64,000 nt of DNA, taken from contig JAUFSD010000009.1 of the NCBI GenBank assembly GCA_033030425.1, positions 1,240,001-1,304,000 on the forward strand, written 5' to 3'. Below the pieces are notes generated by a model, which saw only the letters and a program-made list of their open reading frames with translations, did no database searches and had not been told where the DNA came from. The stretch comes from Verpa conica (Eukaryota > Ascomycota > Pezizomycetes > Pezizales > Morchellaceae). Of this stretch, positions 34,940 through 61,209 are shown in pieces (position 1 is the stretch's first letter; each line of letters begins with the position of its first letter). Made by a program: the position numbers and the translations under genes.

Positions 34940-35020
34940 TGATTTCGCCCGGGCTCGAACCGGGGACCACAAGTGAAACTAATGTTAGACTTGTGTGATA
35001 ACCAACTACACCACGAAACC
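34940..35020 (-). tRNA. tRNA-Val(AAC) with a short intron
   Basis: Minus-strand cloverleaf: acceptor GGTTTCG/CGAAATC, box A TGGTGTAGTTGG, box B GGTTCGAGCCC, T stem CCCGG/CCGGG. The anticodon stem CAAGT/ACTTG encloses C-T-AAC-A, then about 7 extra bases (TTAGTTT), then C. This fits anticodon AAC interrupted by a very short canonical-position intron after base 37. The mature body resembles other ascomycete tRNA-Val(AAC). It is followed on its own strand by T-rich sequence. Confidence 0.93.
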
Positions 35021-52510: not shown

Positions 52511-55500
52511 ATGCAAGCTGTCACCCGACGGGCGCTTCTGTCAGTGCTCCCCATTGCGCGACGAAGACCACTCCCGCACTTCCCTATACGACACCTCCGA
52601 AACACAGCGAGATGCTTTCATATCACCCCCAGAGTTTCCCAATCCGACCCAAATGATTCTTCTAAAGCAACCGGTACTCCCACTGATTTCTTTACGAAGA
52701 AGACTGATATTTCGGAGGGCTCGCCACTGAGAGAGACCAATGGTGCTGGAACTGCCGATAGGGGAAATGCAGAATATGGGGAAACTGCAATAACACCGGA
52801 GGCGGAGGAATTTATGGGAGGTAATGGTGAGGATTCACTAGACCGGCCTCAAAGACCACGGGGGCGACCTACGGGCTCAAAATCAAGAAGAGTAATGCCA
52901 AAGGCAGTACCGATAATACAGAAGCCAAATGTACCGCTTTGGTTTCTCGAGCATGGGGTAACGCTGCTGGAGGACAGCATACTAGATCCGGCGAGTAGGA
53001 AACTTGGGATTTCTCCAAGTAAGCCTATCTCAGAGCCCGAGGAGGTATCATCTGAAGAGAAGCCAGTATCGGAAGGGTCGAAGCCTCAAGATACTATGGA
53101 CAAAGCGGTTGACCAACTGCTAGAGGAGATACAGGAGAGAAAGAATCATCGGTACTGGATAGAAAATGTTGTATGGGAGGAGATTAAGGCATATGTACAA
53201 GCCGGATTAATATTGCCCAAAGCACCCTTCCTGGATAGTTTTGCATCGATGAAGTCGAATTGTCTTCTCCACTTTCCAAAAGAAGGTGGTATCTACTGTT
53301 TAGATTCAATAGTGGAGTCTGTGGCATCAGATGTTGGGGCGGATTTGGTTAGGATTGATGCTCAAGATTTGGAGGAGATAGCTGGTGATTTCTTGGGTGA
53401 TTCTCGACATAGTAAGTAAAGACTAACTATGCCAAAGATAATATTTTTCAAGGTCATAAAGCTAACAACTATATAGTGTCTTCCTCTTCTGGATTCTCGT
53501 CTCGTGCAATTCGCTCTCTAGGATATGATGCTCAACTTTCTTCTTCTCTTTCGAAAGAGGCAGAGGAAGTAGAGGAAGATACTGAGGAGAACGAAGAAGA
53601 GGAGTTCGAAGAGGAAGAAGAAGATATTGAACAAGAGAACCCCTTTAATGCTACACCACAAAAGTCATATCAAGCAAATTTTCTCGGCGGTCTTCCTACC
53701 TCTCTACGACAGCTTTTGTTGTCCGGACGATTAGCTGGAGCAACGGTGGTCCCTATATCTTCAGTCGACAGAGAGTCACCGCTCTTTGGTAAACCCCATG
53801 ATATGGTCCTTGACCATTCAAACGAGAAGAAAATACAAGCTCTTTTGGAAGCTCTTATCACTGCCGCCAAAACAAAACGGGCAGCAAAGTCTACCCCCCA
53901 ATCCGCCCCCAATCCACCTTCAGGACCTACGAAATCACAAAATCCACCAACACAAAATAGGACAATAGTTCATATCCGAGATTATCGCGAGCTAGAGAGA
54001 ACAGACTCTGGAGATGCTCTTATCCGTATGCTTCACGAGATAGTGCAACGACGGCGCAGGGAAGGCGAAAGTATCATAATTCTTGGCACAACATCAACGG
54101 AAGAAACTTCAGAAAATCTCACTAAAGCTGGCCTACGCCTGATACAATCTCAACCTGAGGATTCGTACGAGAGGACAATCGTCATACCCCCCCACATTTA
54201 CAACGCTGCGAGTGAAGTTTTTAAGCATGACAAAGAAGCGCGGATACGAGAAGTTAATATTCGACACCTCCGTGATGTGATCCACAGGAGAAGTGGGGAT
54301 ATCGGCCAAGCTGTCACTTTAACAGTTCCGATAGACTGGCACTTGAAAAAAGATGAGGCTCAAAGAACAATCCCGGGGATTGTAGATACAATCTGGAATT
54401 TTGATCGAGTTCACCGTGTTGTGACCACGGTGCTTGGTCAGCGGCTAGACAAAGGAGGGGAGGTTGGAATCGAAGATATCAAACAAGCAGTTCAGCTCCT
54501 TGACAGTAGTGATGCGGTTAAATTTTCCTGGGCTTCAAATGAGCGTCTTCGACAAAAGGCCATAAAGGAATTTGTCGAATTACAAGGAGAATTCAATTCG
54601 ACCATGGCAAATGTTGATGGGCAATGGAAGCGTACGAAGGTGAAATTACCAAAAGACTGTACGCCACATGAGAAGAAACTATTGGGTGGTGTCATAAATC
54701 CCGAGAATATTCACACAGGATTTTCTTCAGTGCGGGCTCCGGATGACACAATCGATGCACTAAAAACTTTGACTTCAATGTCGCTAATCAGGCCAGAAGC
54801 GTTCAAATATGGTGTTTTAGCAACAGACCGGATACCAGGAGTACTACTATACGGACCCCCAGGAACTGGTAAGACCTTGTTGGCGAAAGCTGTTGCCAAG
54901 GAGAGTGGGGCTACTGTACGTCAATTTCCCTATTTGTTACTCAAAATGTGTTACTAACTTTTATTATAGGTTCTTGAGGTCAGTGGATCAGAGATTTTCG
55001 ACATGTATGTCGGTGAAGGCGAAAAGAATGTCAAGGCTATCTTTTCTCTCGCCCAAAAACTCTCTCCCTGTGTTGTATTCATCGATGAGGCCGACGCCAT
55101 CTTCGGCAGTCGCCACAGTCACTCAACCAGGACTGCTCACCGCGAGATCATCAACCAGTTCCTGAAGGAATGGGCCGACCTTACAACCACTGCCTTTATC
55201 ATGGTAGCTACAAACCGCCCCTTTGACCTTGACGATGCTGTCCTCCGCCGTCTCCCCCGTCGAATACTTGTCGATCTTCCTACTCGCGACGACCGTCTTG
55301 AGATTCTCAAGATACACCTTGCAAGCGAAGTCATAGCACCATCGGTATCGCTTCAGGCTATTGCTGATCAGACGAATCTGTTTTCCGGATCTGACCTGAA
55401 GAATGTATGCGTTTCTGCTGCGCTCGCTTGTGTCCGTGAGGAGAACGCCGAAGCGGCAAAGGCAAAGGCCGCGGGGAAGTCATATACGTACCCGGAGAAG

Positions 55501-55707
55501 AGGTTATTAGAAGACCGTCACTTCTCCAAGGCACTTGAGGAAATTAGTGCTAGTATCAGCGATGATATGTCCTCGCTCACGGAAATTAGGAAGTTCGATG
55601 AGAAGTATGGAGAGAAGAAAGGGAAGAAGAAAAGAAAGGCAAACTGGGGCTTTGGGCTGGGTGATCAACCTGAGGCGCAAGGTACGGGTAGAGTAAGGGT
55701 TGATTGA
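52511..55707 (+). CDS. Mitochondrial AAA ATPase, Msp1/ATAD1-related
   Basis: Exons 52511-53411, 53477-54915 and 54970-55707 give about 1025 residues. The N terminus is Arg-rich with a mitochondrial-type presequence (MQAVTRRALLSVLPIARRRP ... ARCFHITPRVS). The first 650 residues are a fungal-specific extension with an acidic tract (EEDTEENEEEEFEEEEED). The AAA module has Walker A YGPPGTGKTLLAKA, the split TVLEVSGSEIFDMYVGEGEKNV across intron 2, Walker B VVFIDEADAIFGSR, sensor 1 MVATNRPFDLD and LRRLPRRILVDLPTR, the pattern of the Msp1/ATAD1 subgroup. Probable role: extraction or quality control of mitochondrial proteins. It ends in a basic KKGKKKRK segment. Family assignment is strong, the specific substrate unknown. 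Confidence 0.87.
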
Positions 55708-57119
55708 TTGGCTACCTTTTGCTTTTCCTATTCTATGATTTGGGAAATAGACAAAATAAAACGAATTCAATGGCGTTATGTGTAGCCTTTGTAATATATG
55801 ATGATATATCTTGCGATTTTTCCTTCCTCCACACTGTATTTAGATTTCGGGCTTTTGGGTTACCTGTTGATACTTGTGATCTAAACTAGGAAATGGTAGT
55901 GGGGTTGTAATCTGTGATAATGGATTACATATAAGTATCATGAAATAGTCTGAAATAGTTTGATATCCTGCAGATGAAAATCACACTGCCCAGAGTGAGC
56001 TTCTCCCCTCCTCATCTCAATCATATTGTGTAAACATATGGAAGCCCTATTGACTATTCGGAGATAATTCTTACCGCTGAGTGGTAACCTCCTGAGCCAG
56101 TGGAAAAGGGGGCTTGTACACTCTGAAGTAACGTTTGTGATATGACGGGGCCAAGCACAGCCCAGCTGCTCAAATAGACGCAAATATAGCTCACTTACGG
56201 GAGGCCCGGTCTCCCAATAGAAAAGCCCCCACACCGATTGCAGAGGACCGCACGTTCCAACCATTGCAAAGATATATTCTCAAGTCCCGTATTGCTATTT
56301 AGCTATGTATCGCCTTTGTTTCTCCCAGTGATCGGGTACGATTCTTGCTTGCATACTACATGTACTATAACTTATTGGCCTAACGGTGCATACTCTAGGG
56401 GTATATTCCCTAGCATGAAGTCATTCCCAATAGTTTCTATTCACCTCTTCAGGCTACTATCTGAAGAGGCGAGGGCCTCAATATACATAGAAATTTAACC
56501 TGTTACCTCTTTTTAAGCCTTTATATTAGCCTTAAAAGATAATACTCTCTTTTTTGAGCCTAGATAACCAAAGCTAGCAGTTTTATATTCTCTCGAAGTA
56601 ATATTCATGTACTATACACCAGAATAATTCATATACCCGAAAATACATGTAGTATAAGATTTCTTTCTAGAGCCCCCACCACTCTCCGTAACTCCACAAA
56701 ACAAAAACACCACTCAATCAATACTATGAAGAAAATTTTCACCACATTAGCAAGAGACTGGGAGCCCCCACTATTAGAGCATACCAATGCAGCAATTATT
56801 CACTTATTTACAACCTACCTTGCTAATTCACAGGTTCTCACTCGTGGCTCGATACTCCGGTCTGAGCTGGTTCCTTGAATCTATGGACATCTAGGCCTCG
56901 AGACACTATCCAGTCTTGATACTTTTAGGATCTCCTATGAAGAGCCCTATATATACACATACTTTTGGTTGCTACGCACTGGTGTAGAACAAAATATTCC
57001 CTCGGTGAGGTTCCCTCCTCTTTAACCCTACTTACTGCTGGAGGGCATTTTTTTATTCTTCCTGAATGTGGACGGAAAGCCCCCCCCAGACTTATGACAG
57101 CAAAATTCTATGTACAGAA
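55708..57119. other. intergenic region
   Basis: 1.4 kb. A 108-codon ORF on the minus strand at 55938-56264 has no recognisable domain and is not called. The rest is AT-rich; no repeat was identified. Confidence 0.5.
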
Positions 57120-57216
57120 GTTTATAAAAACCCCTCCCCCAGTTCTCCTTCTCCTTCTCCTTCTCCCCCTCCTTCTCTCCTTCTCTCCTTCTCCTCCTCC
57201 TCCCCTCCTCCTCCAC
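57120..57216 (+). promoter_or_regulatory. TATA box and CT-rich initiator of the structured-RNA locus
   Basis: TTTATAAAAACCCC at 57120-57133 is a good TATA box. It is followed by a long CTTCTCCTTCTCC tract (57142-57215), the usual fungal layout of TATA then CT-rich DNA before the transcription start. The CT tract is also a low-complexity microsatellite, so part of the signal may be chance. Confidence 0.45.
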
Positions 57217-57620
57217 ATTCTCTCCTTCGTCACCATCACCACTACCACCTCCTTCAACAGCACCGGAGTCGTCAGCACAAACAATACCAACGGTAAGTTC
57301 TTCATAGTTAGTTCGCTAGTTTGGCTAAATCTAACTAATTTTCCTGTCTTTTGAATAGATTCTACAGCACCACGACTCCCCTCGCTCAAAGCCCGAAGAG
57401 TGCCTCGCTCTAAAATGTGATGTAGTCCCTTCCAATATTTTTAGTAATGAATTGCAGCTAACTCTCTTAGGTGACCACCTCCAAAACACGGTTTACATTT
57501 TCCTAGGAGGTATGTGATTCTAACTTTGGTGTTCACATAACTAAAAAAATTTATAGGACCCTATTCCCTCCCTAACCTCTCCATTGTGTCGACAATGGAG
57601 AGCGTGTCATTTTTATTCCC

Positions 57621-57824
57621 GGTTAGACGTGAATGAGCTTGCTCGCACGTCTTCCCGATGCCGTTGCCAATTCCCTGCGCTTGAAAAACAGCGTGAAAAC
57701 GGTAGAAGCGGAGCGAAGCTCTACATTTCCCCACCTCTGGTGTCGTGCGATCTGTAGGCCGGATGACATGGGATGCTTTTAGCACCATGATCAGTCCGCC
57801 ACGGTGTGTGTGACACAGCCGTGG
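57621..57824 (+). ncRNA. structured RNA module 1 (class unknown)
   Basis: About 204 nt. Pairings visible: 57625-57631/57646-57652 (with inner GAGC/GCTC), 57661-57665/57698-57702, 57678-57681/57690-57693, 57721-57725/57753-57757 enclosing 57732-57735/57739-57742, 57767-57771/57785-57789, and 57799-57804/57819-57824 with inner 57805-57808/57814-57817 and one bulged G. Invariant unpaired or tertiary-looking segments shared with module 2: CCAATTCCCTG, GCTTGA, GAAAA, GCGAAGC, TTTCCCC, GGCCGGATGA, ATCAGTCCGCC, GGTG and CAGCC. It does not match tRNA, 5S, SRP, RNase P/MRP, U1-U6, box C/D or H/ACA snoRNA, TPP riboswitch, hammerhead, HDV or group I patterns that I know. Confidence 0.8.
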
Positions 57825-58010
57825 TTAAGATCACCTACCGGGTGATGATTCCGCTACCAATTCCCTGTGCTTGATTAAGCAAGAAAAGTGGTCGAAGAGA
57901 TGCGAAGCCCTGTCTTTCCCCGCTCGGGCGTTGTGTGAACTGACAGGCCGGATGAACATGGTCTCCATGGAATCAGTCCGCCTTGGTGCCTCAAGGCAGC
58001 CAAGGTTTTT
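57825..58010 (+). ncRNA. structured RNA module 2 (class unknown), followed by a T run
   Basis: About 186 nt, about 190 nt downstream of module 1 in register. The same stems are kept with different bases: 57830-57835/57841-57846, 57851-57855/57887-57891, 57868-57872/57877-57881, 57909-57914/57942-57947 enclosing 57921-57923/57928-57930, 57957-57961/57965-57969, and 57981-57986/58000-58005 with inner 57987-57990/57995-57998 and the same bulged G. A G-T pair in the second stem (57853 with 57889) fits RNA of the plus strand only. TTTTT at 58006-58010 directly after the last stem could terminate Pol III or simply end the module. Confidence 0.8.
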
Positions 58011-59421
58011 CTGTCACGTTTTGTGCAGAATGTAACATTGTTCTCTGGCCTCTGTGCGAGGGAATGAAGTTTCTGATTTGGGCTTAAATTTGGCTTTTGG
58101 TTTGGCTTTAGTTTGGATTTTAGTTTGGATTTTGGCGTTTGACCCGGATTTGTCTTTGGAGTTGGCTTTGATCCGACTTTAAAGCCCCTTGTTCGACAAA
58201 CTAAGATCATGATGTCCCATAAGTTTGTTTCTCTAGCTCATTTATACCTATCTAATAGTGAGGAATTATCCTACACTCTCCTAGGTGATTGGATATACCC
58301 CGATAACCTCCCTTAGTACTTTCACGCCTCTTGGTTCCTGAGAAATCCGTGATACTAGGAAGAATTAAGTACTTAGAAAATGAGTCTCTAATATCCTTGG
58401 CGCTTTTTATTATCTCTTGGAAGTTACGGTGAGAAATTATCTCTTGCCCGGGTATCCTAAAATAAACTTAGTTAAATAAAATCCGTTTACACAAACTTTA
58501 GATTGTTAATTTTAGGTGGTGAAAATACAATTATGAAAAGAGAGACAGAATTAATCCTGCCATCGTTCTTAAAAACCTCAGATCGATGCTATGAGTTGTT
58601 CTACACTTTTTTAAAACTAAGCTAAGGCTTACGGGAATTATATTATCGGGTGGAATTGGAATCTCTCATTTCTTATAGGTACACTCTAGCTTTAGTAACG
58701 CGGTTTACTATTTCTATCTTATCTAGTGGTAAGGTAAACTCCCCCCCCCCCCCCTCAGTTTGGTGGGGTATAATCTTTGCCGTCTACCCCATGTGGGACA
58801 TGAGATCTCACTCGATAGATAGCGAAAAACCATAACGGGATTAATAATTTCTTAGACCTATTAAATAAGTCCGGAAGGCGGGAAGTATTGCTTTATTACT
58901 ATCTTGGTGTAGGGTCAGTTTAGGAAACTTTGGCCTACACTCACTTTTCATAGTTCAGACCTCTTAGGTAGAATGAGACTACATGTAGTTCACCTAGAAA
59001 AAGGATTTACCATGAAAAACTTAAAAGCATTTTAGAAATCCTATGGCTATGTGATAGTACTCCTTCCCATAACTCCGGCAAAATAACTCACAAAAGTTCC
59101 AACACAATCTATATTCCGTCCTCCCCACCAGGCCTCAAAACCAGAGGTTAGATCTTACATAAGCCCAACCCTAACCTCCTACCCAACACCCACCCCCTTA
59201 GTCCTCCGAACCATACTTACGTGAAATAATATATAACACCCTATCAAAAACATGAGAAAGCAAAAAATAGACCCAGCAAATAAAAAAAAGTATGTAATAA
59301 AAAGTAAACCCTTTCCTTCCTGCCGTCTTGTCACCATGTTCAACTTCCACCACCCTATAATTCCTAAGCCCAACTCCACTGGATACATTATCGCCCACTC
59401 CTTCACTTACCTAGAACTAAG
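58011..59421. other. intergenic region with TTTGG-rich repeat and C run
   Basis: 58075-58175 is a degenerate tandem of TTTGGCTTT/TTTGGATTT units. A pure C run occupies 58741-58754. The rest is AT-rich with no gene recognised; on the minus strand the ORF at 57875-58210 is only the KP-rich translation of this repeat plus module 2. Confidence 0.55.
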
Positions 59422-61209
59422 TTACCTCTCCTCTTTACTCAATCCTCTTCCAAACGCCTTCTCCGCCTCACTCCACTTCCTCCTTTCCATACTCATCCTA
59501 TCCGCAAACGCTCCCGCAAATTTCCACACCTCCGTACCACCCAAATTCCATGCCTCAACTACTTTCCGCAACCTCTTCTTCTTCCCGCCATCTTTTGCAC
59601 TAAACGCATCTTTATGGGTTGTCTCCAGTAGTTTTTTCTGGTGTACGTCAGGTTTTTGAAGATCAAGCTTAAGCTGCTCCTCTGTTGGAAGAGTGAAGCC
59701 AAGATTCCATTCAATATCTTGGAAATCAGCGTCCGAGGTTGAGAGAATGGTCGCAAGATTCGGGTCTGTAGTAGCCCGTTTAATTGTTAATACGCGCGGA
59801 ACGGGGCCGACAGAGTCAGGTACTGTAACACTGCGGAGCCATTCGTCGCGTTCAGTACGGCGGCGGATGTAGCGGATGGATTTTTCTTCAGAATCAGTGG
59901 AGAGGTTGATCTCAGTGTAGTGAAGGGCTATGAAAGTATATGGATGTGGAATAGTGCCCAGGGAGAAGATTCCAGTTTTGTTGACAAGTCTCTTGGAGGG
60001 TGTGATCGTGAGGGCTTCTTTACATGATTTACAGACCTGTTTATTGCTAGGACATGACCCTGGTTCCGGATTATCGACCGGGCATGATGCAAGGCGGTTC
60101 GCAAGGACCTGAGATGGATACTGCAGTGCGCCGAGGTCCTCCGGGAATGGTGAGAGGATAGAAATTCCATTGGGGTAGGCGGAGAGCCAATTCTCATGGA
60201 GGTGCGAGTTGATTAGACTGGGGAGATCGCTGAACTTAAGTTTAGGGTATTTAGACTTGATCGCCTCGGGGGTGTAGTCGGCGAATGATTTAGGAATTGG
60301 ATCAATATGGAAGAGCGTATCGCCGGCCGCTTTAGTAGCTCCCTCGATTGTCACAGTGTCGTTTTCCATTTTATTAGATGTGATGTGTTTCAGGATCGCA
60401 TCCACCGAGGATTTATCGCCGGCAAAGACTCTGTGGCCCCAGTTCTCGTAGCGGGTAGCGTAGGTAAAATCGCATCTTCGGAGAGCCGTGAGTGTGTGAT
60501 CATCCCATGGCGCCATAGGAATAACCTAATTCACTCGTTAACCATCAATTGACTTATCTTGCACTCCCGGTGATCTATCGCATACCTTATAATCCACCAA
60601 GACTCCAGTTCCCATCCGACTCCATGCAAGCCACCTCATAAGCTCCCTCTCAAAGTCAGGATTAAAGTTTCCAGTATCCCTCACAACCCTATACAGCCCG
60701 TGTTCCTTCGCATCTCCCATCCCTAAGATTACAGGCTTAAATCCCTGCGCCCAGAATGCCCTTCTCCACGCGAGTAACAGGTGGTCCTCCACCTCTGCAT
60801 CTTCGCCTTTTGCAGCCGAATCGTAGAACGTATAAACCGGACACCTTTTCTGCAAAGGTGGCAGCACAGATCTCTCCTCATCCCCTAGGGCGATGTTGCT
60901 CGAAAAAGGGTTTAGCCATTTCCAGCTCGAGAACCAGGAATCGCTCGAGGCGGTTGAGTTTGATGATGGCGGGGGCGGTTTATGTGATGCTTGTTTGAAT
61001 GGGTTGAGCTCGGTGATTGAGTCCGAGATATGAGGGAGGTCGAACCCTGTCACAGATTGTTCGGCGGTATCAATGAGGGAGGACGGGATGAACAAGAGGG
61101 CAGAGATAGATAGGAGGAGGATTCCGGAGAGAAATATGAGGAGGCGGCGGGTAGAAATTGACTGGCTCCCAGAGATGAGACGGCCTTTGAGCCCTGGAGG
61201 TGGCTTCAT
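59422..61209 (-). CDS. Type II membrane protein, conserved fungal family of unknown function
   Basis: Exons on the complement 60586-61209 and 59422-60525 give about 575 residues; the 60-nt intron is phase 0 and rejoins GVLVDYK to VIPMAPWDD. A short basic cytosolic tail (MKPPPGLKGRLISGSQSI) precedes one membrane anchor (LLIFLSGILLLSISALLFI), then a Ser/Pro-rich stem and a luminal domain: CPVYTFYDS, LLAWRRAFWAQGFKPVILG, LMRWLAWSRMGTGVLVDY, TYATRYENWGHRVFAGD. The layout (type II anchor, stem, globular domain, conserved Cys in SCPVDNPEPGSC and CKSC) is that of Golgi glycosyltransferase-like proteins. I know it only as an uncharacterised family in ascomycetes; an enzymatic role is inference. Confidence 0.75.

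Follow-up and report, generated by a model that had tools for sequence, protein, structure and literature searches.

RNA elements in which structured units are repeated are known from several systems. The glycine riboswitch carries two homologous, aptamer-sized folds in tandem ahead of a coding region and is matched by Rfam, and the ToxI RNAs of bacterial type III antitoxin systems use arrays of structured repeats as the functional unit, in their case short pseudoknot repeats next to a toxin gene. To our knowledge, structured non-coding RNAs beyond those with housekeeping roles have rarely been described in fungi as families spread over several loci. The nearest lead is the conserved intergenic structure 2 of Gao, Jones and Rivas (2021, PMC8216456), a stand-alone structured RNA of Pezizomycotina of about 144 nt with 24 covarying pairs, reported there from 223 sequences in 207 genomes, so that a few genomes have two copies. 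The large ornate bacterial RNAs GOLLD, ROOL and OLE are likewise many-helix structured RNAs of unknown role (PMC12286853). With respect to 3′ ends, hairpins cut by the RNase III enzymes Rnt1 and Pac1 are found at the 3′ end of Pol II-transcribed fungal snRNA and snoRNA genes (PMC8421224).

Here we describe a locus in the genome of Verpa conica (45.8 Mb, 25 contigs) that combines tandem structured units with a 3′ hairpin common to many loci. It lies in a stretch of 64,000 nucleotides (C9:1240001–1304000), hereafter the window, to which all positions without a contig name refer. On the evidence of this one genome, we document covarying folds, the common 3′ hairpin (3HP), the change of the preceding RNA body from locus to locus and the absence of a match in Rfam.

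Two structured units with compensatory base changes

A first-pass annotation had placed a tandem pair of in-register structured units at 57621–58010, and all of the motifs and stems named in it were found at their place. The units do lie in this interval; its end, however, was set too early, as the conserved hairpin at 58024–58080 belongs to the feature as well (Table 1). In a hand alignment of 173 columns, the two units are identical at 115 of 154 positions. The differences include double changes that maintain pairing: three in TCTACA/TGTAGG (unit 1) versus CCTGTC/GACAGG (unit 2), two each in CCACGGT/GCCGTGG versus CCTTGGT/GCCAAGG and in TGTGT/ACACA versus TGCCT/AGGCA, and one each in CCGTT/AACGG versus CCGCT/AGTGG and in CGCT/AGCG versus TGCT/AGCA. 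Summed over stems with at least two of them, the double changes amount to 9, while 1000 column shuffles gave a mean of 0.33 and a maximum of 5, none reaching 9, in agreement with the selected RNA fold that had been proposed. One of the four stems behind this sum (CGTG/CACG versus CAAG/CTTG) is incompatible with the model and possibly a chance match; leaving it out lowers the sum to 7, which exceeds the shuffle maximum all the same. Unit 1 folds better than shuffled sequences (z −3.05); for unit 2 taken by itself, the difference is not clear (z −1.28).

The resulting model of a unit comprises P1 with a conserved 12-nt 5′ loop strand, P2, a linker containing GCGAAGC, P4 with an internal loop containing TTTCCCC and YGTGYGA, P5, a P6 interrupted by single-base bulges, and a P7 that carries one bulged G. 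Two possible alternative pairings were noticed without being established: CCCTGY in the loop of P1 would pair to the 3′ arm of P4, and CGTG/CAAG after P2 to P7. The RNA is most likely read from the + strand, since two G-U pairs, in P1 and P4, would become A-C mismatches on the − strand.

Table 1. Features of the RNA locus in the window
Feature	Position	Strand	Basis
TATA box (TATAAAA) of a putative promoter, with a C+T-rich tract reaching to about 57230	57123..57129	+	read from sequence
Putative leader intron, GTAAGT ... CTAACT ... AATAG	57293..57358	+	by eye, inferred
Possible second leader intron, GTATGT ... TATAG	57510..57556	+	by eye, weak
Perfect 11-bp inverted repeat (hairpin) ahead of unit 1	57577..57602	+	sequence analysis
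Hairpin P0 ahead of unit 1, AGACGTG/CACGTCT	57625..57652	+	sequence and fold
Structured unit 1 (P1, P2, P4, P5, P6, P7)	57657..57824	+	alignment and models
Hairpin ahead of unit 2, ATCACC/GGTGAT, without sequence identity to P0	57830..57846	+	sequence and fold
Structured unit 2	57847..58005	+	alignment and models
Common 3′ hairpin (3HP), also at at least 18 other genome loci	58024..58080	+	alignment, patterns, covariation, models

Genomic setting of the tandem units

The locus is flanked on its 5′ side by an AAA-ATPase gene on the + strand (ORFs 53476–54957 and 55003–55707; Pfam AAA and DUF7608) and on its 3′ side by a convergent gene on the − strand (59422–61209), for which no Pfam match was obtained. 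A neighbouring protein shares 44–46% identity with its nearest named relatives, from Tuber and Choiromyces, and 66–77% with eleven unnamed ones, which fits a probable place of the organism in the Pezizales. The putative TATA box upstream of the units is followed, after the first bases, by 40 nt that are 93% pyrimidine. The TTTATAG that closes the possible second leader intron could alternatively belong to a second TATA-like start region. Within the putative leader, ATGTGA at 57416–57421 contains a start codon with a stop codon directly after it. The only tRNA gene that ARAGORN reports in the window is a tRNA-Leu (taa) gene on the − strand at 34940–35020.

Two compact tandem units with conserved unpaired motifs, preceded by putative leader introns, might be expected of a tandem cis-regulatory aptamer in a long leader, comparable to the glycine riboswitch, and a tandem aptamer had been among the initial suggestions. 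We regard this as very unlikely. No + strand ATG ORF of at least 60 aa is found in the ORF list between the units and the convergent − strand gene (shorter spliced exons fall outside this list), so that no coding sequence was found downstream for a riboswitch to control. The + strand ORFs 3′ of the units are one GTG ORF of 61 aa and one ATG ORF of 135 aa that overlaps the 3′ part of the convergent gene. In contrast to the glycine riboswitch, the window units neither precede a coding region nor match Rfam; moreover, a paralogue on contig C3 lies in another context and the same 3HP follows other bodies, as described below. When an antisense ORF over unit 1 was run against the protein database to look for spurious ORFs in relatives, there were no matches.

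A second tandem pair in the same genome

A covariance model (R1) was built from the two window units, and a further locus on C3 was reached via mismatch patterns of two conserved motifs. R1 scores the first C3 unit with 94.7 bits (E = 3e-26); the second C3 unit was missed by R1 and recovered by alignment. The C3 locus is a paralogue: it likewise has two units, its junction is more compact and its 3′ part is conserved. Blastn aligns it to the window at 68.8% over 465 columns in a block confined to 57617–58071. The 11-bp inverted repeat ahead of unit 1 is only weakly kept at C3.

Because the structure had been derived from the window pair, the C3 units provide an independent test of the fold. 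In them, 49 of 57 pairs form, whereas 2000 shuffles averaged 22.3 and never exceeded 35. Nineteen pair states occur in C3 that are absent from the window units; 12 of these still pair, 5 of them being double changes. The paralogues thereby add to the covariation. Across all four units, 91.7% of the cells pair and double changes are seen at 12 pairs; in controls with the partners displaced by 1 to 3 columns, the values are 31–42% and 0–3, respectively. The weak points are P1, which is paired in 70% only in the four-unit alignment, and P7, which has apparently been lost in the first C3 unit. R1 gave no match on ten other loci of the same genome. DNA searches within the genome carry little weight as negatives because a query with unit 2 did not return unit 1, to which it is 75% identical; mismatch patterns did better.

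A common 3′ hairpin ends at least 19 loci

Both the window and the C3 locus end with the 3HP, which is present at 16 further loci examined and, with the C2 locus described below, at no fewer than 19 loci of the genome. A first 3HP pattern led to two C19 loci besides C3 (control, 0). A shorter pattern, allowing up to 3 mismatches, found 33 places, 14 of them with at most 2, while the reversed-pattern control found 5 in all; within the window it found one where 0.02 are expected by chance. Eighteen of the 33 places were examined, the other 15 comprising one with 2 mismatches and 14 with 3, eight of the latter in one C4 repeat. In the RNAalifold consensus of the 18 loci, the apex is nearly invariant, with CUGGC/GCGAG around a 6-nt loop. 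The arms of the basal stem vary between loci yet pair, and the sequence 3′ of the hairpin is not conserved. The covariation score of the alignment is 0.410, whereas shuffled alignments gave 0.256 (sd 0.025; 0 of 500 reached the observed value) and slid alignments 0.18–0.26. Two of five measures are weaker (10 of 500 and 40 of 500 shuffles), which weighs against the reading as a gene family. A hairpin model (R2) finds, in 173 kb, the 18 loci from which it was itself built and nothing else; in 324 kb of other loci, including the surroundings of the U3, RNase MRP and RNase P genes, it finds nothing at E ≤ 1.

The strongest rival to the reading as one RNA family is that the 3HP is a 3′-end cleavage or termination hairpin of the RNase III type (Rnt1/Pac1-like) shared by unrelated non-coding RNA genes, in which case the loci would form no single functional family and the tandem units would be one structured RNA among several. 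In favour of this rival, the 3HP lies at the 3′ end of the similarity and has a stem of about 14 bp plus apex, the basal part of which is free in sequence but pairs. According to a study on fission yeast, Pac1-cut hairpins end snRNAs, snoRNAs and some coding transcripts; Pac1 is described there as requiring a stem of at least 20 nt and as tolerating extensive variation in the length and sequence of the loop (PMC8421224). The 3HP stem has 14 pairs in the model plus about 4 in the apex, being longer by eye at some loci, and its loop, unlike the free loop of Rnt1/Pac1 hairpins, is nearly invariant. Furthermore, R2 detects no 3HP around either of the two U3 loci or around the MRP and RNase P loci, and a promoter box is common to several 3HP loci. 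The nearly invariant apex, together with the absence from the examined surroundings of two U3 loci, one MRP locus and one RNase P locus, argues against a general terminator, while leaving room for a dedicated one. Altogether we consider the terminator explanation unlikely.

Changing bodies upstream of the common hairpin

The 18 putative transcripts, whose start points were partly set by hand, were compared by pairwise blastn (best hit per pair, E ≤ 0.001). A common body was found for five pairs of loci only, namely C9/C3, C19a/C19b, C18a/C18b, C1/C1b and C4/C12 (254–579 nt), and the other pairs with a match share 17–85 nt at or around the 3HP. Hence, the bodies are mostly unrelated between loci, and each body type was found at one or two loci. 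Some bodies are themselves tandem arrays. The C18a and C18b loci hold 2 and 3 copies, respectively, of another module, about 80 nt long, whose core GCACGAATACGGACGTTAGGGGCCGTTCAC has one substitution in each C18a copy. The stem of this module covaries over the 5 copies, which were picked by hand, with three pairs broken in some of them. The C19a and C19b loci contain arrays of several other repeats that are longer than those of the window, C3 and C18. When the bodies were subjected to column-shuffle tests, the observed value was reached in 0 of 200 shuffles for C19a/b and in 1 of 200 each for C4/C12 and C18a/b; the results for C9/C3 (21 of 200) and C1/C1b (106 of 200) are weaker and weigh against the gene-family reading. 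The sense ORFs measure 8–120 aa; at 9 of 18 loci they are longer than the mean of the shuffles, above all at C3, C21, C10, C18a and C18b, so that some of these loci may be coding, which weighs against the gene-family reading.

Some further details of the bodies were recorded. Of the C18 arrays, L113 is read on the reverse strand, L114 being the other. The motifs CACGAAT and GTTCAC of the C18 module recur in a C19 repeat. C19:723050–724310 and C19:760040–761350 are related loci with long arrays of several hairpin repeats before the 3HP, the latter including one 81-nt and one 137-nt tandem repeat. By eye, the C1, C1b, C10 and C21b bodies contain a hairpin with U-rich strands on both sides (in C1, GGTCTTTTT ... 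CTTTTAAAT), which is reminiscent of ENE-type nuclear-retention elements.

A common 3′ end with changing bodies is also known from SINE- and Helitron-like elements, and the similarity between the C9 and C3 loci indeed spans nothing beyond the RNA body and the 3HP. That the loci represent a mobile or formerly mobile family of this kind nevertheless appears distinctly improbable to us. Each body type was found at one or two loci, unlike a SINE. In addition, the arms of the 3HP differ but covary while the sequence 3′ of it is not conserved, the fold of the units has been kept after strong divergence, and Rfam gave no match in 17 member loci at E ≤ 1.

A promoter box at part of the loci

The sequence TCGGCCAAAT occurs 5′ of the TATA box in exact form at 5 of 18 loci and with one mismatch at 2 more, compared with no exact copy and four copies with one mismatch in a background consisting of the window and 69 kb of C19. 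At the other 11 of the 18 loci, including the window, the box is absent within one mismatch, which weighs against the gene-family reading. A genome search for CGGCCAAAT-GCCAAG-TATA, in which the hairpin was not consulted, returned 6 distinct sites (reversed control, 0), three of them known members and three new, and a 3HP follows 4 of the 6. Among the new sites, one led to the C2 locus as 19th member; its hairpin, missed by the 3HP pattern and not among the sequences used for R2, scores 44.2 bits (E = 1.8e-10). At the two remaining sites, C10:928837 and C23:1112690 (both − strand), no 3HP was found at E ≤ 10 within 1251 nt. Since both have the GCCAA-GCCAA-TATA arrangement without a 3HP, and an open frame starting with ATG follows the promoter at C10:928837, promoters of this kind are not confined to the RNA family; the missing 3HPs and the open frame, too, weigh against the gene-family reading. 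At 11 of 19 loci, the sequence 5′ of the 3HP contains a TATA-like site with at least 75% pyrimidine after it, compared with 29 of 1381 background sites, a generous comparison in that the best site per locus was set against single background sites.

Comparison with known RNA families

As in the first-pass annotation, the units could not be matched to a known RNA family: Rfam 15 gave no match in the 64-kb window at gathering scores and none in the region at E ≤ 1, so the clear Rfam match named in advance as a refuting outcome did not occur. At E ≤ 10, the region matched only two lncRNA models on the opposite strand (E 1.6 and 5.1), with scores well short of the cut-offs; positions 55700–59420 gave no match at E ≤ 5, and neither did the 17 member loci, the C2 locus left out, at E ≤ 1. 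An identity with RNase MRP, RNase P or U3 was rejected, as the genome has its own loci for each, all above cut-off (MRP C1:53675; RNase P C22:795623; U3 C3:1843489 and C10:1327811). An H/ACA snoRNA was rejected as well, because by eye neither unit has an H box (ANANNA) between two hairpins together with a 3′ ACA, and there is no Rfam match.

The loci are rich in hairpins and apparently non-coding, and fungi make small RNAs from hairpins (PMC9757828). Precursors of such milRNA-like RNAs, or of a ribozyme, are in our view highly improbable here: the conserved part of the 3HP is the apex and not an arm, Rfam matched no known self-cleaving ribozyme in the region (E ≤ 10) or in the 17 member loci (E ≤ 1), and the HDV order of helices was not found by eye. 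Of the original proposal that a tandem complex fold indicates a ribozyme pair, a tandem aptamer or a selfish RNA, the part that stood is that the fold is selected and duplicated; the ribozyme reading found no counterpart among the known self-cleaving ribozymes of Rfam, and the three suggestions were not supported as worded, the pair being one body type among the 3HP loci.

Homologues in viruses or prokaryotes were also considered and rejected. The pattern GGCCGGATGAN{6,34}TCAGTCCGCC matched three viral contigs, seemingly in one phage coding region, and 30 bacterial or archaeal contigs. Over these 33 loci, R1 gave 11 matches of 6.4–16.7 bits (best E 0.0055). These are held to be chance matches because R1 scores the window units from which it was built with 180–203 bits and the first C3 unit with the 94.7 bits given above. 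Further sequence patterns, two in viral contigs and one in genome contigs, had no matches.

As to the published RNAs, the text on intergenic structure 2 mentions neither tandem units nor a common 3′ hairpin (PMC8216456), a comparison of descriptions under which one of the modules may still be identical with it. None of the 15 fungal motifs of Li and Breaker (2017, PMC5640933) seems to match, judged by section headings and passages of that paper. GOLLD, ROOL and OLE are bacterial and reported to form homo-oligomers (PMC12286853), in contrast to the tandem modules, changing bodies and common 3HP of this fungus. The ToxI arrays differ in being bacterial, in their short pseudoknot repeats and in lying beside a toxin gene, a kind of gene not seen here. 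In those parts of the literature that were searched, no description of such a fungal RNA family came to light. In the tests made, unit, 3HP and gene plan matched no known family.

A proposed modular RNA gene family

We give an even chance to the reading that the window locus is a stand-alone non-coding RNA gene of Pol II type, with a modular body and a common 3HP, and belongs to a family of 19 or more loci of this kind. Judging from the sequence, the RNA would be transcribed by Pol II from the TATA box and the C+T-rich start region, and its leader is probably spliced. Each body module may serve as a binding unit for a protein or another partner, so that tandem copies would confer multivalency and the RNA would act as the scaffold of a ribonucleoprotein particle (RNP). 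The tandem-array bodies range from 2 module copies at the window and C3, through 2 and 3 copies of another module at C18, to longer arrays of several modules at C19. The 3HP could be a common element at the RNA level, either a hairpin for 3′-end cleavage or stability or the docking site of a common protein, and would make different bodies into one kind of particle.

Somewhat more tentatively, just short of an even chance, we suggest that the loci form a gene family made of RNA only but built like modular protein families, with one promoter style, exchangeable and tandemly repeated modules and one terminal hairpin, all members being cargo or subunits of the same RNP. If this is true, it would constitute an undescribed class of RNA whose bodies diversify quickly while its ends remain fixed. 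The evidence is self-contained in one genome, in which paralogues reveal the fold, the 3HP ties the loci together and some bodies are tandem arrays. If transcribed, the RNAs would be a directly testable new class with built-in comparisons between paralogues, for instance for the partner of the 3HP and the ligands of the modules.

A complementarity between units and terminal hairpin was observed in addition. ATTCCCT, present in both units (57670–57676 and 57860–57866), is complementary to AGGGAAT in the 3HP (58059–58065), which is either chance or may reflect a long-range contact; by eye, the second C3 unit and the C3 3′ hairpin also contain a complementary pair.
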